DNA of 38,447 bases from the NCBI GenBank assembly GCA_003170315.1, contig PNAH01000017.1, forward strand, positions 57,076 through 95,522. Reading direction: 5' to 3'. The position numbers were made by a program, and so were the translations under genes. The notes below the pieces were generated by a model. The model saw only the letters and a list, made by a program, of their open reading frames with translations. It was not told the DNA's origin and searched no databases. The DNA comes from Acidimicrobiaceae bacterium. Lineage in GTDB: Bacteria > Actinomycetota > Acidimicrobiia > Acidimicrobiales > RAAP-2. Shown here piece after piece: positions 6,421 through 24,699 of this stretch (its first letter is position 1; each line of letters starts with the position of its first letter).

Positions 6421-7488
6421 ATGATCGACGAAGAACTAGTTCAATTGTTGACGCCCGAAGGCGAGCGCGTCGAAAACTCCGAGTACGAGTCCACCCTCAA
6501 TGGCGACGAGATCTTCAGCTTCTACCGCGACATGGTGATCATGCGACGTTTGGACAACGAATCGACCTCGCTGCAACGTCAAGGTCAGCTCGCCCTGTGG
6601 GCGCCGATGCAGGGCCAAGAGGCCGCGCAAATCGGCGCCGGACGGGCTCTCGCTCCCATGGACTTCACGTTCCCGACCTACCGCGAACACGGCATCGCTT
6701 GGTGTCGCGGGGTGCCCCCCGAGAACATGCTGCGACTCTTTCGCGCCGTCAGTAACGGCGGCTGGGATCCGCAGAAGTACCGCCACTCAGTGCCGACCGT
6801 CGTGCTCGGGAGCCAGACCCTGCACGCCGTCGGCTACGCCATGGGCATTCAGCGCGACGGCGCCGAAGAGGCCGCCATGGCCTTTTTCGGTGATGGCGCC
6901 TCCAGCCAGGGCGACGTGTTGGAGGCCTTCGTCTGGGCCGCCTCGTTCAACGCCCCGGTCGTTTTCTTCTGTCAGAACAACCAGTGGGGCATCTCGACGC
7001 CGTCCACGGTGCAGTCCAAGATTCCGCTCTATCACCGTTCGCACGGATTCGGCTTTCCCGGCGTGCGCGTTGACGGGAACGACGTGCTCGCGGTCTACGA
7101 AGTCTCCAAGCGTGCCCTGGACTCCGCGCGCGTCGGCGGCGGTCCGACCTTGATCGAGGCCTACACCTACCGCATCGGCGCGCACACCACGTCGGACGAC
7201 CCGACGCGCTACCGGATCGACGCCGAGGTCGAGGTGTGGAAGCACCGCGACCCGGTCGAACGAGTCAAGGCGCTGTTGGTGCGCGAGTACAAGGTGAAGA
7301 ACGCCGACTTCGACGACGTCGCCGCTGAGGCCGACACCATGGCCCTCAAGTTGCGCGAGGACGTCCTCGCCATGAGCCGCCCCGATCCGATCACGATGTT
7401 CGACGACGCCTACGCGGCGCCGCACCCCCTGATTGAAGAAGGTCGTCGCGAAATGATCGACCTCGGCATCTCCGGGGGTGAGCTCTAA
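6421..7488 (+). CDS. pdhA: 2-oxoacid dehydrogenase (pyruvate/branched-chain) E1 component, alpha subunit
   Basis: A 355-residue thiamin diphosphate enzyme subunit. The ThDP/Mg motif begins at G157-D158-G159 (GDGASSQGDVLEAF) and closes with CQNNQWGIS about 28 residues later. Preceding conserved stretches include the LQRQGQLALWAPMQGQEAAQIG region near residue 48. With E1 beta it decarboxylates a 2-oxoacid and passes the acyl group to the E2 lipoyl domain. A GTG at 6415 is also in frame, but AGGAG at 6411-6415 is well spaced for the ATG at 6421, which I chose. It is the first gene of an E1alpha-E1beta-E2 operon. Whether pyruvate or branched-chain 2-oxoacids are the substrate cannot be settled from sequence alone. 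Confidence 0.9.
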   Translation: MIDEELVQLLTPEGERVENSEYESTLNGDEIFSFYRDMVIMRRLDNESTSLQRQGQLALWAPMQGQEAAQIGAGRALAPMDFTFPTYREHGIAWCRGVPPENMLRLFRAVSNGGWDPQKYRHSVPTVVLGSQTLHAVGYAMGIQRDGAEEAAMAFFGDGASSQGDVLEAFVWAASFNAPVVFFCQNNQWGISTPSTVQSKIPLYHRSHGFGFPGVRVDGNDVLAVYEVSKRALDSARVGGGPTLIEAYTYRIGAHTTSDDPTRYRIDAEVEVWKHRDPVERVKALLVREYKVKNADFDDVAAEADTMALKLREDVLAMSRPDPITMFDDAYAAPHPLIEEGRREMIDLGISGGEL

Positions 7489-8474
7489 TGGCCACGACGA
7501 CGATGACCATGGCCAAGGCCCTCAACGAGGGACTTCGTCGCGCGATGGAGAAGAATCCCAAGGTCCTCTTGATGGGCGAGGACATTGGGCGCCTCGGGGG
7601 CGTCTTTCGCATCACCGACGGACTGCAGAAGGACTTCGGCGAAGACCGCGTCGTCGACTCGCCGCTGGCCGAGTCGGCCATCGTGGGCACGGCGGTCGGC
7701 CTGGCGATCCGCGGCTACCGCACGGTCTGCGAGATTCAGTTCGACGGCTTTGTCTACCCGGCCTTCGACCAGATCGTCTCGCAAGTCGCCAAACTGCACA
7801 AGCGCTCCGACGGCGCCTACCTCATGGCGATGGTCATCCGCATCCCGTTCCAGGGCGGTATCGGGGCCATCGAACACCACTCGGAGAGCCCGGAGCCCTA
7901 CTTCGCTCAGACCGCCGGACTGCGCGTCGTGTCCCCTTCCACGCCGAACGACGCCTATTGGATGATCCAGCAGTCGATCGAACACGACGACCCCATCATC
8001 TTCTGTGAGCCCAAGAGCCGGTACTGGGAAAAGGGCGAGGTCGACCTCGAAACTCCACCGGCCGGACTCTTCGATGCGCTGGTGCGCCGAGAGGGAACCG
8101 ACGTGACGCTGGTGGGTTACGGCGCGTCGATGAAGACCGCGCTGCGAGCGGCCGAGACCGCGGCGGTCGAAGGGACGTCGATCGAAGTGATCGACGCGCG
8201 TTCCATCGCTCCGCTCGACATCGAAGTGATGGCGAAGTCGCTCGAGAAGACCGGCCGCGTCGTCGTCGTCCAGGAGTCGCCGCACACCGCCTCGGTCGGC
8301 TCGGAGATCATCTCGGAGTTGACGCAGCGCTGCTTTTACTCCTTGAAGGCCCCGGGACTACGCGTGAGCGGCTATCACGTGCCGTATCCGCCGACGCGAA
8401 TCGAAGAGGACTACCGACCCACGGTCGATCGCATCCTCGACGCCGTTGACCGAGTGATGGGATTTGAAAGTTGA
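7488..8474 (+). CDS. pdhB: 2-oxoacid dehydrogenase E1 component, beta subunit
   Basis: A 328-residue transketolase-like subunit whose ATG shares one base with the E1 alpha stop (TAATG). Diagnostic segments are MGEDIGRLGGVFRIT near residue 27, DSPLAESAIVGTAVGLAIRG near 56, and FQGGIGAIEHHSESPEPYF near 123. The C-terminal half is a transketolase C-type domain (VTLVGYGASMKTAL; IDARSIAPLD). It forms the alpha2beta2 E1 with the preceding gene. The window contains a second E1 beta at its right edge, so this organism has at least two such complexes. Confidence 0.93.
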   Translation: MATTTMTMAKALNEGLRRAMEKNPKVLLMGEDIGRLGGVFRITDGLQKDFGEDRVVDSPLAESAIVGTAVGLAIRGYRTVCEIQFDGFVYPAFDQIVSQVAKLHKRSDGAYLMAMVIRIPFQGGIGAIEHHSESPEPYFAQTAGLRVVSPSTPNDAYWMIQQSIEHDDPIIFCEPKSRYWEKGEVDLETPPAGLFDALVRREGTDVTLVGYGASMKTALRAAETAAVEGTSIEVIDARSIAPLDIEVMAKSLEKTGRVVVVQESPHTASVGSEIISELTQRCFYSLKAPGLRVSGYHVPYPPTRIEEDYRPTVDRILDAVDRVMGFES

Positions 8475-9883
8475 GCGAAGAAATCTTCCTGCTACCCGAC
8501 GTCGGCGAGGGTCTGACCGAGGCCGAGATCGTGACCTGGAAGGTCCAGGTCGGCGACGTGGTGACCCTGAATCAACCACTGGTCGACATCGAGACCGCCA
8601 AGGCCACGGTGGAACTGCCCAGTCCCTACGCCGGTACCGTCGTCGCCCTGCACGGCAATGTCGGCGACGTCCTCGAAGTGCACAAGCCGCTGATCACGTT
8701 CGAAGTCGGTGGCACCGGTGGCGCTCCGGCCCCCGAGGCGCCGAGCACGCCGACTCCGGTCAAAGAAGCCTCGGACAAGCAAGAGGGCTCGGTGGGCGAG
8801 GGTCGCGAAGCGGTTCTGATCGGCTACGGCGTCGCCAACGAAGACGCCGTCGTTACGCGTAAACACCGTCGTCAAGGCGGTACTCCGGGCGCCGCACCGG
8901 CGTCCGCTCCGGTGGCCGCGGCCAGCGAACCGGTCGCGACCTTGCCGTCCGTGGCGCCGCGTTCGACGCCCCCCGTTCGCCTCTACGCCAAACAAAACGG
9001 CGTGGACATCTCGTCACTGACTGGCACGGGACGAGACGGGCTCATCACGCGCGTCGACGTCGAGCAGGCCGTGGGTGGCGCGCCATCCGCGCCCCGCGCT
9101 CCTCGCGTCAGTGCGCCGATCACCGGTCCGAACACCACGTCACGGTTCGTTGGTCGCGAACTCGAATCATGGGCGTCCGGTCCGAAGGAGGAGCGCATTC
9201 CCGTCAAGGGCGTGCTTCGCTCGATGGCCGAAGCCATGGTGCAGAGTGCGTTCACCCAGCCCCGCGCCGCGGTGTGGGTGCGCGTGGACGCCACGCGCAC
9301 GATGGATCTCGTGGCCTCGCTGAAGCAACAGCCCAATCTCGCGGACCTTCGACTTTCGCCGCTCACGATTATCGCCCTCGCCGTGTGCGACGCCGCCCGT
9401 CACTTCCCGGGCGTCAACTCCAGCTTCGACGCCGCGGCCAACGAGGTCATCGTCCGGCGTAGCGTGAATCTCGGAATTGCGGCCAACACACCGCGAGGTC
9501 TGATCGTGCCGAATATCAAGGGCGCCGATCAACTCGACCTCGTGGGCATGGCCTCGGCCTTGCAAGTGCTCGTGGACAAAGCGCGCGAAGGTACGACCAC
9601 GCCGAATGAGATGATCGGCACGACGTTGAGTATTACGAATGTCGGCCCCTTCGGCGTCGACGCCGCGATCCCGATCCTGCCGCCGGGCACCGGTGCGATT
9701 CTGGCCGTGGGTCAGATCGCCAAGGCACCGTGGGTCGTTGACGATCAGGTCGTCGTGCGCCAGGTCGTCGAGTTAGCGATGGCCTTCGATCACCGTCAGG
9801 TCGACGGGGCCATGGCCTCGGCGGTTCTTTCGCACATCGGTCGCTTCTTGCACGACCCGGCCGCGGCCATCATCGCCGGCTAA
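8471..9883 (+). CDS. pdhC: Dihydrolipoamide acyltransferase, E2 component of 2-oxoacid dehydrogenase
   Basis: A 470-residue E2 that starts at a TTG overlapping the E1 beta stop by four bases (TTGA). There is one N-terminal lipoyl domain with the lipoylated lysine K44 in DIETAKATV. An Ala/Pro/Thr linker follows, then a peripheral-subunit-binding domain near 172-205 (RLYAKQNGVDISSLTGTGRDGLI). After a second linker comes the acyltransferase domain from about 235 to the end. The catalytic motif DHRQVDGA begins at D440, so H441 and D445 are the active pair. It transfers the acyl group from lipoamide to CoA. No E3 (lipoamide dehydrogenase) gene follows, so E3 must be encoded elsewhere. The stop overlaps the convergent peroxiredoxin stop by four bases (CTAA). 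Confidence 0.94.
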   Translation: MSEEIFLLPDVGEGLTEAEIVTWKVQVGDVVTLNQPLVDIETAKATVELPSPYAGTVVALHGNVGDVLEVHKPLITFEVGGTGGAPAPEAPSTPTPVKEASDKQEGSVGEGREAVLIGYGVANEDAVVTRKHRRQGGTPGAAPASAPVAAASEPVATLPSVAPRSTPPVRLYAKQNGVDISSLTGTGRDGLITRVDVEQAVGGAPSAPRAPRVSAPITGPNTTSRFVGRELESWASGPKEERIPVKGVLRSMAEAMVQSAFTQPRAAVWVRVDATRTMDLVASLKQQPNLADLRLSPLTIIALAVCDAARHFPGVNSSFDAAANEVIVRRSVNLGIAANTPRGLIVPNIKGADQLDLVGMASALQVLVDKAREGTTTPNEMIGTTLSITNVGPFGVDAAIPILPPGTGAILAVGQIAKAPWVVDDQVVVRQVVELAMAFDHRQVDGAMASAVLSHIGRFLHDPAAAIIAG

Positions 9884-10335
9884 GACTTCAGCAGTCGCAG
9901 TGCGGCGAGTGACTTGTCGGCGTGGGCGGTCATGCTCAACTCACTGTTGATGACCTCGGCGACGCGCCGGTCTTGACCGATGACGAACGTCGTGCGCTTC
10001 ACCTTCAAGAAATCGAGGGAACGCTTCACGCCGTACAGCTGGGCGACGTCGCCCTTGACATCGGCGAGTAGTGGGTAGTCCAAGGCGTTCTTGGTCGTGA
10101 ATTCGGCCTGCTTCGCCACGCTGTCCATTGAGACGCCGAGTCGCTGTCCGCCGAGCGCGGCGAAATCGGCCGCTAGGTCGCGAAAGTGACAGGACTCCTT
10201 CGTGCAGCCCTTGGTCATCGCGGCGGGATAGAAGAAGAGGACCACGGGGCCGTTCAACAACATCGTCGAGAGCGTTCGCTCGTTGCCCTGTTGGTCGTTC
10301 AGTTTGAAGTCGGGGGCCACATCACCTTTTTGCAT
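9880..10335 (-). CDS. bcp: Thioredoxin-dependent peroxiredoxin, Bcp/PrxQ type
   Basis: A 151-residue AhpC/TSA-fold peroxidase. C44 (peroxidatic) and C49 (resolving) occur in GCTKESC, the CxxxxC spacing of the Bcp/PrxQ subgroup, after FFYPAAMTK. It reduces hydrogen and organic peroxides in the cytoplasm using thioredoxin. Eleven bases after the upstream response-regulator gene suffice for its own promoter: the TAA stop of that gene is the first half of the hexamer TAACCT, and six bases later comes this ATG. The two genes may thus be both an operon and separately transcribed. Its 3' end overlaps the E2 gene. Confidence 0.92.
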   Translation of the reverse strand: MQKGDVAPDFKLNDQQGNERTLSTMLLNGPVVLFFYPAAMTKGCTKESCHFRDLAADFAALGGQRLGVSMDSVAKQAEFTTKNALDYPLLADVKGDVAQLYGVKRSLDFLKVKRTTFVIGQDRRVAEVINSELSMTAHADKSLAALRLLKS

Positions 10336-11261: not shown

Positions 11262-12182
11262 ATGCAGAGCCCCTCAGTGAACATCGGTCGCGACGAGCAC
11301 GTGTGGTCCTTCAACGCCGAGCGTGAGCCCGTCGTCACCGTCGACCCCGGCACCGTCATCGCGATCGAGACGTGGGACTGTTTCACGGGACAGGTGCAGA
11401 GCGAAGAGGACACGTTGGAAAAGCTCGATCTCACTCGAGTGAACAGCGCGACAGGACCGATCGCTGTTCGCGGCGCCGAGCCCGGCGACACGCTCTCGGT
11501 GACGCTGCTCGACATCCGACCGAACGAACAGGGCGCGGCGATGTGCATCCCGGAGTGGGGACAGCTCATCGACACGGTTCATTCACCGACCACGAGAATA
11601 TTCAAAGTCAAAGACGGCACCGTCACGATGAATGACCGAGTGTCGTTTCCCGCTCGTCCGATGTTCGGCGTCATCGGTGTCTCACCGGAGTCGGGCGACG
11701 TCTCGACGTTCTACGCCGACCGACACGGCGGCAACATGGATGACCACGTGAACGCCATCGGCGCGACGATTCACCTGCCCGTCTTCCAGAGCGGCGCACA
11801 GCTGGCCATCGGCGACATGCACGCGTCGATGGGCGACGGCGAGATCTCGGGGACGGGAGTGGAGATCGGCGGCGTCGGCGTCATCCAGGTCGACGTGATC
11901 AAGGGCCAGCGCGCGGGCTGGCCGATCACCGAGACGGCCGATGCGTTTTATACGCACGGCACGTCCTCCGGCGATCTGGACGAAGCACTGCAGCACGCGT
12001 GTGAGGAGGCGTCGAAGTTGCTGGTCGACGAGTGGGGCTTTTCGCGCGAGGACGCCTTCATGTTCCTGTCGGTCGCCGGAGACCTCGGCATCGCGCAGTA
12101 CTGTCACCCGTCTCCAGGCAGCGTGATCGCTCGGATGAGAGTCCCTAAATTGGCGTCCAACCCGAAACCGTTTCGCAGCTAA
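11262..12182 (+). CDS. Acetamidase/formamidase family protein
   Basis: A 306-residue protein of the FmdA/AmdA family, which hydrolyses short-chain amides to ammonium and the acid. Family features include VDPGTVIAIETWDCFTGQ near residue 24, the PIAVRGAEPGDTLSVTLLDI segment, FGVIGVSP, GGNMDDHVNAIGATIHLPV and AIGDMHASMGDGEISGTGVEI near 185. The frame is open 66 codons further upstream, but that part is unlike the family; the ATG at 11262 has GGAG at 11253-11256 and matches the usual N-terminus. A candidate promoter is TTGTAA at 11208 with TACTCT at 11230, 16 bases apart. The stop overlaps that of the convergent repeat-protein gene by CTAA. Confidence 0.88.
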   Translation: MQSPSVNIGRDEHVWSFNAEREPVVTVDPGTVIAIETWDCFTGQVQSEEDTLEKLDLTRVNSATGPIAVRGAEPGDTLSVTLLDIRPNEQGAAMCIPEWGQLIDTVHSPTTRIFKVKDGTVTMNDRVSFPARPMFGVIGVSPESGDVSTFYADRHGGNMDDHVNAIGATIHLPVFQSGAQLAIGDMHASMGDGEISGTGVEIGGVGVIQVDVIKGQRAGWPITETADAFYTHGTSSGDLDEALQHACEEASKLLVDEWGFSREDAFMFLSVAGDLGIAQYCHPSPGSVIARMRVPKLASNPKPFRS

Positions 12183-13633
12183 CTGGTGGTGACGGTGAAT
12201 CCCGCGTAGTTGGTCTGCGTCTTCATGTAACTGCCCGTGGCGGTGCACGGACCCGTGGCGTGACAGATCAATCCGTAAACGCCACCGTCGACACCGACGG
12301 TGTTATGGCCGGTCGGCAGCGTGATCTTCTGACCGGTTCGCCACTGGCCAGCGACTTCGTTCACGACCAACGCCTGGTACGCGCTCGCGCCGTCGACGTA
12401 CGCCGCCCCGGCGCTGCAGTTTCCGGCCGAGCGACACGAGACCGCGACGACGCCACCGTTCCGGCCGGCCATCTGTGAACCCGCGGGCAACGCCAACTCG
12501 GTCGCGGTCTGCCACGTGCCGTTGACTTCGTTGATGAAGAATCCCTCGTAGGTGCTGGTGCCGACGAGGTACTGGCCCCCGGCGCTGCAGTTGCCGACGG
12601 ACGGGCACGTCAGACCGCCGTAGCCGTAGAAGAACGTGTGCGGATTAGGCGCGGCACCGCTGGGCATCGCCATCGTGACGGCCCTCGCCCACGTGGCGTG
12701 CGTTTCACTCACCGTCAGGCCCTCGATGTCACCGGCAACGTTGGTGTAGGTGCCCAGGGCGGTGCAGTTGTTCGTCGACGCGCACGTCACCTCACTGAGT
12801 GCGGCGCTGGGGTAGGCGCTGGCGTTACCGGGAAGTACGGCGGCCTTGGCGCTCTTCCACGCCCCATCGACTTCGGTGATCAAAAGTCCTTCGGTCGCGT
12901 TGTCCCGGCTGATGTACGAGCCCACGGCGACGCAGTTGCCGGCGTGGGTACAGGCCACTTCGTTCAGTACCGTGTACGGGTCGACGTTGGCGCCGGCGGG
13001 AAGTCTCGTCTCGCGCGCACGTCCCCACACCCCTCGAACCTCGTTTACTTCGAGTCCCTGCTCGTAGCCCGTGGGCGGTGTGCCGTCGATGTAGCTACCG
13101 ATGGCGCTGCAGTTGCCCGGCGACCAACAATCGACCGAATGGATCTGGCTGTTCTGGACGGTCGCCGCAGCGCCCGACGGCAGGGCCACCTTTTGGCCCC
13201 GCTTCCACACGCCTCGTACCTCGTTAGCGACGAGGCTCTGGCCGTTGCTGTGCGTGTCCTCGAATCTGCCGACGGCGGCACAGTTTCCGGCCGAGGCGCA
13301 CGAAAGCGAGTTAATGGTGAGCGAGGGGTCCTTGTTCGCGCCCGACGGGGGGAGCAGTCTGATCGGTGCCTCCCACACGCCCTTCACCTCATTTAACACG
13401 AGGCCCTCGACGTTGCCCGCTCCGTCGCTGTAGGCGCCTCCGGCGCTGCAGTTGCCGGCCGAAGAACACGAGAGGGCGGGCAGGAACCCGTTGGGCAGTC
13501 CGGTCGCACCCGTGGGCAGGCTCGCTACCTTCGCGGTGTGCCACTGGGGCGCGGCGTTCGTCGCCGCGGCTGGGAGGGACAGACACAGCAAGCTGAGTGG
13601 TGCCACTAGGAGTGCGGTGCGTCTGAACTTCAC
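12179..13633 (-). CDS. Secreted repeat protein, eight roughly 50-residue repeats, possible beta-propeller
   Basis: A 484-residue protein. The first 27 residues form a Sec signal peptide (KFRR, a hydrophobic core, then PAAATNAA). The rest is eight repeats of about 50-58 residues with the pattern (L/V)xCxSxGNCSAxGxY, then a GLxxNEVxGxW strand and LPxGA. Each of the eight carries a Cys pair seven or so residues apart (C-x5/6-NC), suggesting a disulfide per repeat outside the cell. The chain begins with a W-plus-LPTGA half repeat and ends with a half repeat lacking that part, as expected if the ends close a ring like a beta-propeller. The GTG at 13633 is preferred over longer forms because it starts the signal peptide. 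I do not recognise a named family; function is unknown. Confidence 0.8.
   Translation of the reverse strand: MKFRRTALLVAPLSLLCLSLPAAATNAAPQWHTAKVASLPTGATGLPNGFLPALSCSSAGNCSAGGAYSDGAGNVEGLVLNEVKGVWEAPIRLLPPSGANKDPSLTINSLSCASAGNCAAVGRFEDTHSNGQSLVANEVRGVWKRGQKVALPSGAAATVQNSQIHSVDCWSPGNCSAIGSYIDGTPPTGYEQGLEVNEVRGVWGRARETRLPAGANVDPYTVLNEVACTHAGNCVAVGSYISRDNATEGLLITEVDGAWKSAKAAVLPGNASAYPSAALSEVTCASTNNCTALGTYTNVAGDIEGLTVSETHATWARAVTMAMPSGAAPNPHTFFYGYGGLTCPSVGNCSAGGQYLVGTSTYEGFFINEVNGTWQTATELALPAGSQMAGRNGGVVAVSCRSAGNCSAGAAYVDGASAYQALVVNEVAGQWRTGQKITLPTGHNTVGVDGGVYGLICHATGPCTATGSYMKTQTNYAGFTVTTS
12182..13474 (-). repeat. Eight tandem protein-coding repeats within the secreted protein
   Basis: The repeats begin at residues reading LSCSSAGNC, LSCASAGNC, VDCWSPGNC, VACTHAGNC, VTCASTNNC, LTCPSVGNC, VSCRSAGNC and LICHATGPC. 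The DNA is diverged (different codons), so the array is an old protein-level duplication and not a recent DNA tandem repeat. Confidence 0.8.
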
Positions 13634-13722
13634 GGGCGGGACCCCACTGTCTAGGTCGTGGACGAGGCCCACGGTTCGGAGTCCCACCCGAACTCCGCGG
13701 GGATCAACCACGAGTTGAATTC

Positions 13723-13972: not shown

Positions 13973-15463
13973 ATGACTGATTTAAAGGCAAAGGAGACCT
14001 CAGGCGTGATAACGCGCCTTGACCAAACTGTCGACAACTCCAATTCCCCTTTGACCGAGACCACTTCAACCCCGCGCACGGTGAGTCAGTTGCTCGACGA
14101 GGCACCGACCAGCCGATTCCACCGGCGTGCGGTGCTGATCTCGGGTATGGGCTTCTTCACCGACGCCTATGACCTGTTTGTGATCGGAACCGTCGCTGCC
14201 CTGGTCAAGGTTCAGTGGAACCTCTCAACGACCCAGACCAGTTGGGTCACGGGCTCAGCAATCCTCGGAGCCTTCATCGGAGCTTTCATCTTTGGACGGA
14301 TCGCCGATATTTTCGGTCGCAAAGTGATTTACACCACGGTCGCCGCCATCATGATCTTCGGGGCCGTGGCGTCAGCACTCGCACCTAATTTTCTCTTACT
14401 GGTGATCGCTCGTTTCATATTGGGTCTCGGCATCGGTGGCGATTATCCGGTATCGGCCGTGTTGATGAGTGAGTACTCCAACCGGGCTGATCGTGGGCGT
14501 CTCGTCGGGTTGGTTTTTTCGATGCAAGCGGTGGGTCTCATCGTGGGTCCCCTTGTGGGCATCATCTTGTTGTCCTCAGGAGTCGGCGACCCGTTGGCCT
14601 GGAGGATCCTGCTCGGTCTTGGCGCACTACCCGCTGCGGCGGTCATCTATTTCCGGACGAAGATGCCAGAGTCGCCGCGTTTCAAGGCGCTCGTTCAGGG
14701 CTGCGCCGATCAGGCCGCGAAAGAGCTCCATTCGTTCGCCGACGGGGCGCTCGATGCTTCGACAGTCACTGACGAGGGCAGGCATCTCATGGGAGTTCGC
14801 CAGTTCCTCTCAAACCCTCGGATGCTTCTCATGCTCGTGGGGACGGCCGGATGTTGGTTCCTCTTTGACTACGCGTACTACGGGAACACCTTGTCGCTGC
14901 CGAGCATCCTCACTGAAGTCTCGCCAAACGCGAGCATCGAGATGAAGCTCCTTTTGACCCTGGCGCTGTTCACCGTCTTCGCTGTGCCGGGTTACGCCCT
15001 GTCGGTTTGGAAGATGGACAAGATCGGTCATCGTCGATTGCAATTCATCGGTTTTGGTGTGATGGCGGCGTGCTTCGTCGTCCTCGGTGCCGTCCCGTCA
15101 CTTACGAACTCGGTGGCACCCTTCATCGCAATCTTCGGAATCAGTTATTTGTTCACGGAATTCGGACCGAATATGACGACGTTCGTCCTCCCCTCAGAGG
15201 TGTTCCCCGTGAACATGCGAACGACGGGACACGGGGTCGCAGCCGGTGTCGGAAAGCTCGGTGCGTTCGTGGGAGTGTTCCTGGTGCCCCAACTCGCCGA
15301 GCACATAGGACTTCGTGGACTGCTGTACGTCGCCGGAGGTGCCGCAGTTCTGGGCTTCTTGCTCACCAATGTCCTTCCTGAAACATCCGGGCGATCTCTC
15401 GAAGAGATCTCCGGCGAAAACGAGGAGCCAACGCTGGAGCCCGCGTCGGCGCAGGTCGCGTAG
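13973..15463 (+). CDS. MFS permease of the phosphate:H+ symporter (Pho84) type
   Basis: A 496-residue protein with about 12 membrane segments and a 50-residue hydrophilic N-terminus. GMGFFTDAYDLFVIGTV near residue 59 and LGLGIGGDYPVSAVLMSEYSNRADRG near 148 are hallmarks of the PHS/Pho84 branch of MFS transporters. RPESPR-like MPESPRF near 229 follows the sixth helix. It would import phosphate, or a related organic anion, with protons. The ATG follows GAGG by seven bases. A PHO-box-like repeat lies upstream. Third positions look less GC-rich than in neighbouring genes, which may indicate transfer. A hairpin follows at 15503. Confidence 0.85.
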   Translation: MTDLKAKETSGVITRLDQTVDNSNSPLTETTSTPRTVSQLLDEAPTSRFHRRAVLISGMGFFTDAYDLFVIGTVAALVKVQWNLSTTQTSWVTGSAILGAFIGAFIFGRIADIFGRKVIYTTVAAIMIFGAVASALAPNFLLLVIARFILGLGIGGDYPVSAVLMSEYSNRADRGRLVGLVFSMQAVGLIVGPLVGIILLSSGVGDPLAWRILLGLGALPAAAVIYFRTKMPESPRFKALVQGCADQAAKELHSFADGALDASTVTDEGRHLMGVRQFLSNPRMLLMLVGTAGCWFLFDYAYYGNTLSLPSILTEVSPNASIEMKLLLTLALFTVFAVPGYALSVWKMDKIGHRRLQFIGFGVMAACFVVLGAVPSLTNSVAPFIAIFGISYLFTEFGPNMTTFVLPSEVFPVNMRTTGHGVAAGVGKLGAFVGVFLVPQLAEHIGLRGLLYVAGGAAVLGFLLTNVLPETSGRSLEEISGENEEPTLEPASAQVA

Positions 15464-16194: not shown

Positions 16195-16281
16195 ATGACA
16201 CGATTCCGAATTTTGCCAATCATTTCGGATGAGCGACAGGACGTTGACAATCATTCCCTCCGAGGAAGCGCGCATGTTTGA
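16195..16281 (+). CDS. Possible 28-residue leader ORF overlapping the glycosyltransferase start
   Basis: ATG at 16195 is preceded by AAAGGAG at 16184-16190, the best ribosome binding site in this region. The ORF encodes a 28-residue, His- and Arg-containing peptide beginning MTRFRILPII and ends at a TGA at 16279-16281. That TGA lies just inside the next gene, whose favoured ATG is at 16274, so the leader's ribosomes would terminate on top of the next start. This could couple translation or attenuate it. It may equally be non-functional. Confidence 0.35.
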   Translation: MTRFRILPIISDERQDVDNHSLRGSAHV

Positions 16282-17428
16282 AGAGACGCCTATCAACGAC
16301 CACCTGACGCGTACCTACGCGATGGTCTCGACCTATCCACCAACACAATGCGGCATCGCCACGTTCGCCGCGGCGTTATCGGGCGGGCTGTACGAATACG
16401 GTGACGACGTGGGCATCGTGCGCGTCGGCGCTGCCGGTGAACCGGCGGCCAAGATCGTCGTCGCCGAGTTGAACGATGACGACGGCGCCGAGACCGTTGA
16501 CGCCATGGACGCCCTCAATCGGGCCGACGTGGTCATCGTCCAGCACGAATACGGGATTTACGACGGGCCCGACGGCGAGTCGATCGTGGAGGTTCTGGAA
16601 GGAATTGATCGACCGACCATCGTCGTCGCCCACACCGTGCTCGAGCACCCGACGCCGCACCAACGCTCGGTGCTGGAAGCCGTCGTTCGCGCGGCTGACG
16701 CCGTGGTGGTGATGACCGAAGCGGGCCGGGTCCGTCTCTGTTCGAGTTTCGACGTCGACACGAGGAAGATCTCGGTCATTCCTCACGGCGCGGCCGTCTC
16801 GAGTGCTGTACGTCTGGTGGACTCGAAGGAGCGACCGCGACTTCTCACCTGGGGACTCCTCGGCCCGGGCAAGGGTATTGAGTGGGCGATCGACGCCCTC
16901 GCGATGCTCGACGACCTGAGACCCAGGCCGATCTACGTCGTCGCGGGCAATACCCACCCCAAGGTTCACGAGTACGAGGGCGACGTGTACCGCGACATGT
17001 TGATGCAACGCGCCAAGGACCGTCACGTGGACGTGATCTTCGACCCGGAGTACCGATCGTTGGCGTCCCTCGCCCAGTTGATCAGCGAATCGACCATGGT
17101 CATCCTGCCCTACGACTCGCCGGACCAGGTGACCTCGGGCGTTCTGGTCGACGCCATCGCGGCCGGTCGTCCGGTAATCGCTACGGCCTTTCCGCACGCC
17201 GTGGAACTGCTCTCGAGCGGTGCCGGCATCGTGGTGCCGCGCCGCGACCCCGAGGCGCTGGCCGACGCCATTCGAAAGGTCCTCACGACGCCCGGACTGG
17301 TCGGTGCAATGGCGAATGAAGCTCGACGGCTCGCTCCGGAATTGGCGTGGCCCTTCATCGCCTCTCGCTACGCCGCCCTCGGCGAAGAGTTACTCGACAA
17401 TCGAGCCCCACTGTCGGCCAATCGATGA
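16274..17428 (+). CDS. GT4-family (GT-B fold) glycosyltransferase
   Basis: A 384-residue glycosyltransferase. The N-terminal Rossmann half begins near STYPPTQCGIATF and includes VVIVQHEYGIYDGPDG. The C-terminal half has the donor site: LLTWGLLGPGKGIEWAIDAL, and later PYDSPDQVTSGVLVDAIAAGRPVIATAFPHAVELL, where the GT4 EX7E-type region normally lies. It should use a nucleotide-sugar donor; GDP-mannose is plausible given the GH130 partner but unproven. An ATG at 16229 is also in frame, but GAGGAAG at 16262-16268 is correctly spaced for the ATG at 16274. The stop overlaps the next gene by four bases (ATGA), and the third gene overlaps likewise, forming a tight operon. Confidence 0.85.
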   Translation: MFEETPINDHLTRTYAMVSTYPPTQCGIATFAAALSGGLYEYGDDVGIVRVGAAGEPAAKIVVAELNDDDGAETVDAMDALNRADVVIVQHEYGIYDGPDGESIVEVLEGIDRPTIVVAHTVLEHPTPHQRSVLEAVVRAADAVVVMTEAGRVRLCSSFDVDTRKISVIPHGAAVSSAVRLVDSKERPRLLTWGLLGPGKGIEWAIDALAMLDDLRPRPIYVVAGNTHPKVHEYEGDVYRDMLMQRAKDRHVDVIFDPEYRSLASLAQLISESTMVILPYDSPDQVTSGVLVDAIAAGRPVIATAFPHAVELLSSGAGIVVPRRDPEALADAIRKVLTTPGLVGAMANEARRLAPELAWPFIASRYAALGEELLDNRAPLSANR

Positions 17429-18435
17429 CCGACGGCCCACGCTTCGACCACTTGGTCCGGTTGACCGACCGATTCGGCACCTTCGAACACGCCGAGCACG
17501 CCACGCCTCGACGCGAACACGGTTACTGCGTCGACGACGTGGCGCGCGTGCTCGTCGTCAGCGCCCGCGAACCAAGTCCGAACGCCTCGGTCCGGTCCTT
17601 GGCCCAGGGTTCGTTGGCGTTCGTCGGCGACGCGATGGGACCCCACGGTGACTGTCGAAATCGGCGTTCGGCTGACGGAACGTGGACCAGCGAAGGATCG
17701 ACCGAGGACTGTTGGGGACGAAGCCTCTGGGGACTGGGAACGGCCGCGGCCAGCACGCAATTCGCGATCGCCGGACCTGCACTCCCGCTCTTCGAACGCG
17801 GTGCCGAACAACGTTCCCAGTACCCGCGCGCCATGGCCTTTGCCGCGCTCGGTGCCGCGGCCGTTCTCGGGGTCCATCCGGCGAACGCCGCCGCTCATTC
17901 GCTGCTGAGCGACTTCGCCGACGCGTTGTTGGTCGCACGCGACGACCCCGCGTGGCCGTGGCCCGAAGTTCGGCTCTACTACGCCAACGCGTTGTTACCC
18001 GACGCGATGATCGCCGCGGGCGTCGCTCTCGAGCGTCCTGACCTCGTCGCGGGAGGTCTCGACCTTCTCGGCTGGCTGCTGGCGCGAGAGACGCGTGACG
18101 GACACCTTTCGGTAACGCCCGCGGAAGGTTCGGGACCCGGCGATGTCGGCCCTCGCTTTGATCAGCAGCCCATTGAGGTTTCGACGATGGCCGACGCCTG
18201 TGCCCGGGCGCTGAATGTCGACGATTCACCGAAGTGGCTCGAGGCCATTCGGATGGCGAATGCGTGGTTCGACGGGGACAATGACGCGAAAGTCATGATG
18301 TGGGATCCCTTGACGGGTGGGGGCTTCGATGGCCTGCACGCCGAGGTCGCCAATCAGAATCAGGGGGCGGAATCAACTTTAGCGCTGGTATCAACCCGTC
18401 AGCAGGCCTTCGCGCACCAAACTATCTCTACATGA
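17425..18435 (+). CDS. Conserved-type protein with probable alpha/alpha-toroid fold, glycan-related
   Basis: A 336-residue protein rich in Ala/Leu helices and conserved aromatic/acid motifs: REHGYCVDDVARVLVV near residue 31, STEDCWGRSLWGLG near 91, and DGGFDGLH-like GGGFDGLHAEVANQNQGAESTLA near the end. Such spaced GYCxDDxAR and ExTLA motifs are typical of alpha/alpha-barrel sugar-active proteins, but I cannot assign it to a numbered family. The start ATG overlaps the glycosyltransferase stop and its own stop overlaps the GH130 start, so all three products are probably made together. Upstream in-frame codons exist but lie inside the glycosyltransferase gene and lack a ribosome binding site. 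It may process or bind the glycan made by its neighbours. Confidence 0.7.
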   Translation: MTDGPRFDHLVRLTDRFGTFEHAEHATPRREHGYCVDDVARVLVVSAREPSPNASVRSLAQGSLAFVGDAMGPHGDCRNRRSADGTWTSEGSTEDCWGRSLWGLGTAAASTQFAIAGPALPLFERGAEQRSQYPRAMAFAALGAAAVLGVHPANAAAHSLLSDFADALLVARDDPAWPWPEVRLYYANALLPDAMIAAGVALERPDLVAGGLDLLGWLLARETRDGHLSVTPAEGSGPGDVGPRFDQQPIEVSTMADACARALNVDDSPKWLEAIRMANAWFDGDNDAKVMMWDPLTGGGFDGLHAEVANQNQGAESTLALVSTRQQAFAHQTIST

Positions 18436-19967
18436 AAGAAAACCGCCTCGCGTCACGCACCGATGTCCATATCGTCCCCGACTCGTCACGAGTCGTGGCG
18501 CTGCTCTTCGTGGCCGGTCAAGAAATGGGCGGCGCCGAGTCACGCGCGTCGAACGTGGTGAAGCGAATCGTGGCGTTGCCCGAAGCCGACGTGCGCCGAC
18601 GGCTGAAAGACGTCGTCCAGCGATTCGCGCGCCGGCACCGCGACATCGTGGCCATCTTCAGTCAACACGCCGAACGGGTGAGCAACCGGTTGGACCCGCG
18701 AGAGGACCTGAGCGAGGAACGATGGCTTCTGCTCGGCGCGTCGTTCACCCACGAGTATTCGCTCGAGGCCGCCGCGGTGTGCAATCCCAGCATGGTCGTG
18801 CACCCCGATCAGAGCGACGTGCCCGACGGCGCGGTGCGATTCGTGATGAGTTTTCGCGGGGTCGGCGAAGGACATCGATCGAGCATCGGCTTTCGCACCG
18901 GTCTGGTCACGGCCGAGGGCGAGATCACCCTGGACGAACGAGGACCGTATCCCATGATCGGCACGGCGCGCGACGGCATCTTCCACCGCGACGTCTTTCA
19001 CGCGCGACTAAAGGCGATGGGTCAAGACGGTGAGAGTTCGGCGTACGTCCTGGACGAGTTACCGCTGGTGTTCTCCATCGAAGAACTCGAAGCGCGCCTC
19101 GAGATCCTGACTTCGGAGTTCGACAGGCGTCAAGACGCGCACGCCATTGCGCGTCACCACCGATCGATCGCGGCCAGCAGCTATGGCGTCCACTTCGACG
19201 CCGACATCGATATCTCGGAGCGGGTGCTCTGGCCGGTCATGACGGCCGAAGCGCACGGCATGGAAGACGCCCGGTTCGTCCACTTCACCGACACCGACGG
19301 CACGTCGACGTACCTCGCCACCTACACGGCCTTTGACGGCGTGCATATCTCCCAACAGCTTTTGCGAACCGATGACTTCATCTCCTTCGACGCCTCACCG
19401 GTCGTCGGCGCCGCGGCGCCCAACAAGGGGCTGGCGCTCTTCCCGCGTCGTATCAGCGGCCAATACGTCGCGCTGACCCGCTTCGACCGCGAGACGAACG
19501 CAGTTTGCTTCTCGGACACGTTGGGACACTGGGGACGCGCCGTGACCTTCCAAATTCCGGAGTGGGATTGGGAGGTCGTCCAGCTGGGCAACTGCGGATC
19601 GCCCATCGAGACGAGTGCCGGTTGGCTGGTGCTCACCCACGCCGTCGGGCCGATGCGCACCTACAGCATCAGCGCCGTCTTGCTCGATCTCGACGATCCC
19701 ACCAAGATGGTCGCCGCGCTCAAAGAGCCGCTCCTCACCGCCACCTCCGAAGAGCAGGACGGCTACGTCCCCAACGTGGTGTACACCTGCGGGGCCATGG
19801 CCCACGGCGACATCCTGGTCATCCCCTACGGCGTCGCCGATCACCGCATCAACTTCGCGACCGTCAGCATTTCGAAGTTGCTCGAGTCCATGACGACGAG
19901 TGAACATCCGACGATCGTCTCGAAGGTTCGACACCGTCGCCTCGAGGACTTAGCCCTCGAAGTCTGA
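18432..19967 (+). CDS. Glycoside hydrolase family 130 protein (beta-mannoside phosphorylase/hydrolase-like)
   Basis: A 511-residue protein. An N-terminal helical region (about 1-100, with EMGGAESRASNVVKRI and ERVSNR) precedes a five-bladed-propeller-type domain. Family segments include EYSLEAAAVCNPSMVVHPDQS near 113, VLWPVMTAEAHGMEDARFVHFTDTDG near 265, and IPYGVADHRINFATVSI near 470, which corresponds to the YYGAADxxIGxA motif of GH130. GH130 members are mostly inverting phosphorylases acting on beta-mannosides, some are hydrolases. At 511 residues it is longer than the usual 300-400. It is the last of three genes with ATGA overlaps. It is convergent with putA and the two overlap by 18 bases. 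Confidence 0.85.
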   Translation: MKENRLASRTDVHIVPDSSRVVALLFVAGQEMGGAESRASNVVKRIVALPEADVRRRLKDVVQRFARRHRDIVAIFSQHAERVSNRLDPREDLSEERWLLLGASFTHEYSLEAAAVCNPSMVVHPDQSDVPDGAVRFVMSFRGVGEGHRSSIGFRTGLVTAEGEITLDERGPYPMIGTARDGIFHRDVFHARLKAMGQDGESSAYVLDELPLVFSIEELEARLEILTSEFDRRQDAHAIARHHRSIAASSYGVHFDADIDISERVLWPVMTAEAHGMEDARFVHFTDTDGTSTYLATYTAFDGVHISQQLLRTDDFISFDASPVVGAAAPNKGLALFPRRISGQYVALTRFDRETNAVCFSDTLGHWGRAVTFQIPEWDWEVVQLGNCGSPIETSAGWLVLTHAVGPMRTYSISAVLLDLDDPTKMVAALKEPLLTATSEEQDGYVPNVVYTCGAMAHGDILVIPYGVADHRINFATVSISKLLESMTTSEHPTIVSKVRHRRLEDLALEV

Positions 19968-23444: not shown

Positions 23445-24644
23445 TCAGCCGTCGCAGGCCGAAGCCTGCAGGGCTCTACCGGCCCTAAGGATGTTGCGCG
23501 CGGCATTGATGTCGGCGAAGTCATAGTGACCGCAACTGAGACATCTAAAGTCTTCTTGGCTGATTCGGTTACCGGCGTCGACGTGGAGGCACTCCGCACA
23601 CGTCTGGCTGGTGTAGTAAGGATTCACGCTCACTACTGTCCTACCGGCACTCGCAGCCTTGTAGGAAAGTAGCGAGACGAGCTGTCCCCACCCCGAGTCA
23701 TGAATGGAATGATTCAGTCGTGCCTTTTGATTGGCGCCGTTGGGCAGATATGCTCCCGGTTGCTCCGGGTCGGGTCTTCCTTTTGGTGCACGCACCATGT
23801 TGGTGATCTTGAGGTCTTCGAGGGCGATCAAGTCGTAGTCGTTCACGAGTTGCCGGCTTAGTTTGTGAGCCGCATCGCGCCGCTGATTCTTGATCTTGCA
23901 ATGGAGTCGCGCGACCTCTTCGACCTGCAGACGACGACGGAGCGATCCTCGTTGCTTGGTCGAGAGTTGACGTTGAGCTCGTGCGAGGTTCTTCTGCGTT
24001 TGGGAGCCAAAATGCTGGCCCTTCTTCAATTCCCCGTCACTGGTAGCGATTTGGTTCACCACTCCGAGATCGATGCCAATCTCAGAACAAGCTCGCGCCA
24101 ACGGCATCGCGGGCACGTTCACGCAGCTGACGTACAACCACCACTTGGTGCCCTCGCGCTTCACCGTGATGGCTTTCGCAACGCCCATGAGCGGTCGGTG
24201 ATAGTTGGCCTTGATCTCGCCAATCCCCTTCAGGTAGAGGCGTCGAAGCTGGGTGTTTAGTTTCCAGCCGGGGGTGTCTTCCCATCGCAAGGCGTCAAAT
24301 CGACTCGCCGACTTGAATCGTGGAAAGCCTGGAGACTCTCCACTCTTCACTCGCCGATAGAAAGCGCCGTAGGCACGATCGAGGCGTCTGAACGTGCCTC
24401 GACAAAGTGTGATTCCCGAGGCGACGACCTCTGGTCGGAAGTCCTTCAGCCCCGTGAGCGTTCGACACTGGTCGAAGTAACTCACAGACCGTCGCTCCCA
24501 AGCCCAGGCGCCGATTCGCTCTTCGAGGGCCGCGTTATACAGTTCGCATTGATATCTCTGCTGAAGAAGCAGTGACTGGGTCTGCAGTTTGGTCGGGTGA
24601 AGTCGATAGCGGAAGGTGCGACAGAGTGAACCATGTTGTGCCAT
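23445..24644 (-). CDS. tnpB: RNA-guided endonuclease TnpB of IS200/IS605-type element, without tnpA
   Basis: A 399-residue TnpB of normal length. The RuvC-like site is complete: D192 in GIDLGVV, E276 in ALEDLKI, D378 in FADINAARN. The zinc-finger cysteines C349, C352, C368 and C371 are present (TCAEC; CLSCG). The N-terminus MAQHGSLCRTFRYRLHPTK is typical, so the ATG at 24644 is preferred over a TTG at 24686. TnpB cuts DNA guided by an omegaRNA from the element's 3' end and helps retain the element after transposition. No HUH transposase tnpA is in the window, so this is either a solo element mobilised in trans or a domesticated nuclease. Confidence 0.93.
   Translation of the reverse strand: MAQHGSLCRTFRYRLHPTKLQTQSLLLQQRYQCELYNAALEERIGAWAWERRSVSYFDQCRTLTGLKDFRPEVVASGITLCRGTFRRLDRAYGAFYRRVKSGESPGFPRFKSASRFDALRWEDTPGWKLNTQLRRLYLKGIGEIKANYHRPLMGVAKAITVKREGTKWWLYVSCVNVPAMPLARACSEIGIDLGVVNQIATSDGELKKGQHFGSQTQKNLARAQRQLSTKQRGSLRRRLQVEEVARLHCKIKNQRRDAAHKLSRQLVNDYDLIALEDLKITNMVRAPKGRPDPEQPGAYLPNGANQKARLNHSIHDSGWGQLVSLLSYKAASAGRTVVSVNPYYTSQTCAECLHVDAGNRISQEDFRCLSCGHYDFADINAARNILRAGRALQASACDG
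23454..23469 (-). other. UUCG-tetraloop hairpin at the 3' end of tnpB
   Basis: On the tnpB strand GCAGGC, loop TTCG, GCCTGC: a 6-bp stem with the very stable UUCG tetraloop, within the last ten codons of tnpB. The scaffold of omegaRNA in IS200/IS605-type elements comes from exactly this 3' region, so it may be part of such an RNA or of the element's right end. Confidence 0.45.
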
Positions 24645-24671
24645 TGTCGAACACAAAGGTCGGCCTGGTAC

Positions 24672-24699
24672 TTCTCCAGATGACAAGATTATTGGAGAA
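24672..24699 (-). other. Hairpin between the dehydrogenase stop and tnpB start
   Basis: TTCTCCA at 24672-24678 pairs with TGGAGAA at 24693-24699, with a 14-base loop. It could be the left-end hairpin of the tnpB element or a terminator of the upstream gene, whose stop is 15 bases away. No T-run follows. Confidence 0.4.

Follow-up and report, generated by a model that had tools for sequence, protein, structure and literature searches.

A GT4-type glycosyltransferase, a predicted toroid protein and a GH130 protein form a widespread bacterial gene unit that may make and recycle a mannoside

What might a GT4-type glycosyltransferase, a protein without a named family and a GH130 protein accomplish together when their genes overlap end to start? 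The question is raised by a stretch of 38,447 nucleotides from Acidimicrobiaceae bacterium (GCA_003170315.1, contig PNAH01000017.1, positions 57,076 to 95,522, forward strand), the whole of which is referred to here as the window, and which carries such a trio on its plus strand at 16229-19967. Its parts, in window coordinates, are these:

16229..17428, plus strand: GT4-type glycosyltransferase, 399 residues (Pfam Glycos_transf_1 4.5e-15, Glyco_trans_1_4 4e-15)
17425..17428, plus strand: GT4/toroid junction, an ATGA overlap read from the sequence
17425..18435, plus strand: toroid protein, 336 residues, no Pfam or NCBIfam family above cut-off
18432..18435, plus strand: toroid/GH130 junction, an ATGA overlap read from the sequence
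18432..19967, plus strand: GH130 protein of the long type, 511 residues (Pfam Glyco_hydro_130 6e-30)

The initial annotation of this DNA had described three genes joined by ATGA overlaps, and both junctions indeed read ATGA, with all genes on the same strand. The outer genes exceed their Pfam cut-offs (Glycos_transf_1, 56.0 bits against 26.4; Glyco_hydro_130, 104.7 bits against 26), and a long hydrophobic segment is absent from all three proteins. The combination of GT4, toroid and GH130 is a real and widespread unit, as the distributions below document, and we propose with moderate confidence that its products make a cytosolic mannose chain and recycle it to mannose-1-phosphate.

Co-occurrence of the families was borne out. 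Among 296 genomes sampled from the phylum, 42 hold the toroid and 43 hold GH130; both are present in 30, against 6.1 expected (Fisher 2e-21, a value that overstates independence, since the genomes are related). Eleven of the 42 represent weak or C-terminal toroid matches, which were kept in this 2x2 table and excluded from locus counts; a strict table confined to full-length toroids gives 22/31 with GH130 (Fisher 1e-14). Within the organism's own class the same 6 of 26 listed genomes hold both, and 20 hold neither. At the 30 full-length phylum loci that were counted (31 with that of the genome itself), GT4 is fused to the toroid or lies within 300 bp in 29, and 28 have an inverting phosphorylase no farther than 3 kb away, GH130 in 19 and GH94 in 9. 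GH94 replaces GH130 beside the GT4-toroid pair at loci L033-L037 and L068-L071, and of the nine strict toroid genomes without GH130, eight carry GH94 and one (L059) carries neither. The existence of a GH94 version speaks for a core made up of the GT4-toroid pair and an inverting phosphorylase, the latter perhaps setting the sugar.

The same arrangement recurs far beyond the phylum. A scan of named genomes gave 577 matched stretches (one gene can give two). The 80 best-matching loci from it yielded 79 full-length loci, with L101, where the toroid match is split in two, left outside the count. GT4 is fused to the toroid in 74/79, a share biased toward one branch because the 80 loci are the best-matching ones, and GH130 is near in 68/79. 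Judged from record titles, these loci span Desulfobacterales, Planctomycetota, Verrucomicrobia, Anaerolineae, Acidobacteria, Spirochaetales, Bacteroidetes, Bacillota and others. At L051, GT4 and GH130 form one chain of 841 residues and a distant toroid is the next gene; L048 resembles it, with the GH130 part spread over two frames. GT4 therefore occurs fused to either partner. When the phylum and named-genome loci are taken together (109), at least two GH130 genes are found in 19, and 12 of those pair a long with a short form.

Plasmids carry the unit as well. The toroid was matched on 27 of 72,556 plasmid records, 24 of which cover at least 80% of the query; the regions of 13 of these 24 were examined, and some of the others look near-identical to an examined one by their match rows. 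All 13 regions hold a GT4-toroid fusion with GH130 adjacent or one gene away. In Deinococcus KNUC1210 a GT4 gene intervenes, and the GH130 (L197:8167-9138) is annotated as a 'hypothetical protein' that scores as GH130 at 5.9e-94, while in Ilyobacter GH130 precedes the fusion. Annotated plasmid copies of the fusion carry the label 'glycosyltransferase family 4'. The sphingomonad plasmid units (L190, L192, L196, L198, L201) lie among chaperone genes, either GroES/GroEL or Hsp20, GrpE, DnaK and DnaJ-type, and an integrase gene stands beside the unit in 4/5 of them, an arrangement that resembles a mobile stress island.

The case for mannose begins with the GH130 protein, which is modeled with the five-bladed propeller fold of its family. 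Among solved structures, those nearest to it are of beta-1,2-mannoside phosphorylases and of a mannoside synthase, and its nearest solved homologue comes from the oligomannan phosphorylase cluster of Thermoanaerobacter. The following features were placed on it, with conservation given for aligned long and short GH130 sequences:

18531..18743, plus strand: first helical insertion of the propeller, about residues 34-104 (model helices H36-47, H51-65, H72-82, H95-103)
18987..19175, plus strand: second helical insertion of the propeller, about residues 186-248 (model helices H186-195, H201-207, H216-229, H234-248)
19266..19268, plus strand: D279 of the GMED motif, 27/27 long; placed by alignment as the family's invariant Asp
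19425..19427, plus strand: K332, 27/27 long and 49/66 short (Arg in the other 17); aligns with the PNKD Lys of Teth514_1788
19479..19481, plus strand: R350, candidate phosphate-site base, 27/27 long and 65/66 short; aligns with the Arg of four GH130 enzymes
19638..19640, plus strand: H403, candidate phosphate-site base, 27/27 long and 65/66 short; aligns with the His of the same four enzymes

An earlier description of this protein as a 511-residue GH130 with an N-terminal helical region was right as to family and length, and requires amendment as to the helices, which form two insertions and are preceded by the first propeller strands; both stretches are present in the 27 aligned long GH130 proteins. 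The role of the invariant Asp is given in PMC4599007, and K332 would be the Lys that sets beta-1,2 specificity. Where that same paper treats the phosphate site, GH130 phosphorylases are described as having three basic phosphate-binding residues and beta-1,2-mannosidases a Glu pair instead (PMC4599007); the Arg and His common to GH130 phosphorylases of known structure are both present in the window protein, as R350 and H403. By alignment it appears to keep residues of beta-1,2-mannoside phosphorylases, and it is a predicted phosphorylase. The genome holds a second GH130, of 396 residues (L052, C2:47000-65000; GH130 at 8722-9912), which adjoins phosphoglucose isomerase and has as other neighbors 6-phosphogluconate dehydrogenase, a glucosamine isomerase/6-phosphogluconolactonase-type gene, ribose-5-phosphate isomerase and glucose-6-phosphate dehydrogenase, a context that ties it to central sugar-phosphate metabolism.

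Neighboring genes point to the same sugar. Mannose-phosphate genes adjoin the unit in 7/13 plasmid regions: Sphingobium yanoikuyae pSES220 has the order ManC-ManA-[GT4-toroid]-GH130-phosphomannomutase, ManA stands beside the unit in Devosia and Sinorhizobium, and ManC does so in four Sphingomonas/Sphingobium regions that represent much the same island. In two Rhizobium copies GH130 is followed by an AGE epimerase gene and a mannose-phosphate gene is lacking, and four of the 13 regions have neither. ManC is found no more than 145 bp away at 5 of the 109 genome loci. At 7, of which one is truncated by a contig end, the neighboring second GT4 carries a fused mannose-6-phosphate-isomerase domain, as it also does at L101, outside the count. 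The genome of the window itself encodes a mannose-1-phosphate guanylyltransferase-like (ManC-like) gene (NF052502, 4.4e-83, 279 bits, below the cut-off of 440). Since ManC, ManA and phosphomannomutase genes flank the unit in several lineages, we infer that the donor would be GDP-mannose.

Such neighbors might also be read as signs of salvage, as proposed for Thermoanaerobacter, in which imported beta-1,2-oligomannan would be converted by GH130 to mannose-1-phosphate and onward to GDP-mannose, which GT4 would spend on another glycan. In the sections of PMC4264767 that deal with the cluster Teth514_1785-1796, two GH130 genes, ManC and a GT4 are described, a likeness that extends to the beta-1,2-type of the GH130; a cluster joining GT4, GH130 and ManC is thus already in print, as salvage. 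The origin of the closest solved homologue speaks for this alternative, as do the ManC neighbors here and, at L123, a sugar-type ABC binding protein encoded 4.1 kb away from the toroid. The same sections, however, place an ABC importer and a GH5 in the Thermoanaerobacter cluster (PMC4264767), while the gene table for the 13 plasmid regions, itself incomplete, shows no importer of sugars next to the unit, the ABC binding-protein family is near a full-length toroid at that 1 locus only, ABC ATPases are found at 7/109 loci and 1.9-7.4 kb away, and the window's own MFS gene is not conserved. As salvage also leaves both the toroid and the GT4-GH130 fusion unexplained, we judge it unlikely here.

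The plasmid context invites another explanation, namely that the GT4-toroid mannosylates a small acceptor to give a stress solute, with GH130 recycling the mannose and no polymer being formed. Chaperone neighbors are consistent with this (GroES/GroEL in S. yanoikuyae; Hsp20, GrpE and DnaK in two copies; GrpE and DnaK in two copies), as are a Devosia copy near CsbD and the patchy, plasmid-borne distribution. Yet DnaK, GroEL and Hsp20 are each near just 1/109 genome loci, and the 12 loci with long and short GH130 recall the chain-length pair of Thermoanaerobacter and would suit a chain; a small solute is accordingly an improbable product.

A made-and-recycled chain gives the toroid a possible task. 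The initial annotation had called the middle protein a probable alpha/alpha-toroid with GYCVDDVAR and EST-LA motifs; GYCVDDVAR and ESTLA both occur in it, and structure prediction supports the call, returning an (alpha/alpha)6 toroid as the predicted fold. Pfam and NCBIfam contain no model that names the family, which is nonetheless large: 7,844 protein clusters at E <=0.001 among 7,997 candidates scored. Two sites stand out as candidates for catalysis:

17533..17538, plus strand: D37-D38, candidate catalytic acids, 54/54 aligned; retained in 7tem and the distant L048, L051 and L123 toroids
18370..18372, plus strand: E316 of NxNxGAES, candidate catalytic acid, 54/54 aligned; likewise retained in 7tem and those toroids

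Comparison by hhalign with GH76, GH9 and AGE gave probabilities of 8.9, 2.3 and 13, from shallow family alignments (5, 8 and 5 sequences). A role as AGE epimerase was set aside; these shallow profiles gave no support from sequence, and two relatives have a separate AGE gene. Cellobiose/mannobiose 2-epimerase works with GH130_1 mannosylglucose phosphorylase, and a clear relation of its sequence to the toroid was not found at that hhalign probability of 13 and with so shallow a profile. At L123 (Melioribacter; 7352-8662) a 437-residue 7tem-like toroid lies between GH130 and the GT4-toroid fusion.

The GT4-type domain departs from the usual residues of its family. GT4 enzymes usually bear, at the donor site, an Arg-x4-Lys pair and an EX7E motif; the earlier GT4 call stands as to the Pfam domain, and these motifs are not found intact, for which reason gene 1 is classed as GT4-type rather than canonical GT4. 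The two altered places (located from the motifs as commonly given) are:

16856..16858, plus strand: codon L210, place of the usual Arg; Leu in 104/104 toroid-linked GT4 domains
17126..17128, plus strand: codon Q300, place of the first EX7E Glu; Gln in 104/104

At the place of the second Glu, the 104 toroid-linked domains have Tyr in 88, Asp in 6 (D308 in the window), Glu in 5, Phe in 3 and Cys in 2; the Lys, K215, is kept in all 104. Second GT4 proteins from the same loci retain both Arg and Lys in 28/28 aligned (of 29), and E-x7-E in 28/29 (13/29 by a stricter pattern). In a third GT4 type (15 sequences) the Arg place is Leu in 10, Met in 4 and a gap in 1, in a gapped alignment; this type, too, aligns without the Arg, and its loss is hence not unique to toroid-linked domains. 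The substitutions suggest either unusual donor binding or something other than a plain nucleotide-sugar transferase.

The latter possibility could be taken further: the GT4-like domain might be an alpha-phosphorylase or act without a donor reaction, and the unit might interconvert alpha- and beta-glycosides through hexose-1-phosphate, with no sugar nucleotides. Loss of the donor-site Arg and first Glu throughout the 104 domains favors such an exchange, as do the existence of the GT4-GH130 fusion and the fact that GH94, like GH130, yields alpha-hexose-1-phosphate (for GH130, PMC4264767). The ManC neighbors point to GDP-mannose instead. A Tyr in the second Glu position is shared with glycogen synthases, which also counts against nucleotide-free exchange, and we regard it as decidedly unlikely. 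The second and third GT4 genes present at some loci bear on yet another reading, since GT4 enzymes are common in surface polysaccharide and glycolipid pathways; the unit could be part of one, with GH130 and the toroid acting as quality control. Apart from these extra genes, the ABC ATPases at 7/109 loci would fit, but neither flippase nor polymerase was among the recurrent neighbor families scanned (the more frequent families only), and the unit often comprises just two or three genes, which makes this a very improbable account.

A cytosolic mannoside that is both made and recycled fits best, given the genes supplying GDP-mannose and mannose-1-phosphate, the synthase-like fusion, the phosphorylase and the want of a conserved importer. 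The GT4 and toroid parts, fused into one chain in most relatives seen, would take activated mannose and start or build the mannoside; GH130 would use phosphate to split off its beta-mannosyl units (the linkage probably being beta-1,2) as alpha-mannose-1-phosphate, and might run in the other direction, adding mannosyl units, when mannose-1-phosphate is high; the toroid may cut or rearrange the chain through the Asp-Asp and Glu kept in the distant relatives seen. The product could serve as a reserve or in stress. The earlier proposal that the set could build and recycle an intracellular or surface beta-mannoside is thereby upheld in part, by co-occurrence, GH130 residues and mannose genes, and is weakened by GH94 at some loci and by a mismatch of linkage.

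Several observations, besides the relatedness of the genomes compared, weigh against the proposed mannose cycle. Retaining GT4 enzymes make alpha links and GH130 cuts beta links, so that the GT4 product is not obviously a GH130 substrate; with the usual Arg and first Glu absent, donor use by the GT4 domain is itself uncertain; and we know of no activity for any member of the toroid family. With GH94 as the partner at 9/30 phylum loci, a link between the GT4-toroid pair and mannose does not hold everywhere. A minority of the genome loci have mannose-phosphate genes close by, the window has none, and four of the seven mannose-positive plasmid cases are the sphingomonad copies of much the same island. 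Finally, neither GH130 nor GH94 lies within 3 kb at 2/30 phylum and 11/79 named-genome loci; a contig end falls within 3 kb in 7 of these 13, and does not in 6 (L059, L081, L091, L104, L116, L138).

A more ambitious version, which we offer tentatively and rate as possible rather than probable, is a mannogen-like reserve cycle distributed over many phyla, in which the unorthodox GT4-toroid makes or primes mannan and GH130 lengthens or shortens it by way of mannose-1-phosphate, the core being re-used with GH94 for a glucose version. In Leishmania, as PMC8950772, citing Sernee 2019, sets out, the mannogen system, whose product is a soluble intracellular beta-1,2-mannan, employs GT108 mannosyltransferase/phosphorylases, whereas in the present unit GH130 is accompanied by a GT4-type domain and a toroid; the operon would work like mannogen but, having no GT108, would not be a member of that system. 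Another known system combines a glycosyltransferase, a helical-toroid domain and an inverting phosphorylase, although its glycosyltransferase is of another family, inverting and membrane-bound. The one GH94 scanned, at L035, is closest to cellobiose phosphorylases and also matches, more weakly, the GH94 part of that system. No description of the three-part GT4-toroid-GH130 unit was found in the open-licence literature searched, a scope that excludes preprints. If the proposal is true, soluble mannose reserves, known from Leishmania, would be a common feature of bacteria, and deletion of one gene pair would make it possible to test where the beta-1,2-oligomannan used by bacterial GH130 enzymes comes from, a point that PMC4264767 leaves open for Thermoanaerobacter. 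Loci at which GH94 replaces GH130 amount to a natural experiment on GT4-toroid function.

The margins of the operon differ in places from the first account of them. A start at 16195 for the GT4 gene is out of frame and opens a short open reading frame (ORF) instead:

16195..16281, plus strand: 28-codon ORF with AAGGAG ahead of it, overlapping the in-frame GT4 ATG at 16274 (read from the sequence)

That ATG is preceded by GAGGAAG, and, as homology with relatives begins near GT4 residue 27, the start is likely 16274 or 16229. It had also been stated that no transporter lies beside the operon; an MFS gene is in fact present 765 bp upstream, at 13973-15463 and on the same strand, and among transporter families it comes closest to the phosphate:H+ symporters (TIGR00887, 1.4e-94, under the cut-off). 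A blastp search of the ORFs of loci L033-L151 returned no homologue of it, and it was rejected as an operon member on that ground. Farther upstream, at 12179-13711 on the minus strand, is a 510-residue protein with a repeated GNC-type motif and, by eye, a possible export signal, and without a Pfam family. Downstream of GH130, on the opposite strand, lies a proline dehydrogenase/aldehyde dehydrogenase gene, for which the same ORFs gave one partial match (31% identity, in L058), and beside it, at 23445-24686 on the minus strand, an IS605-type OrfB/TnpB-like protein is encoded.

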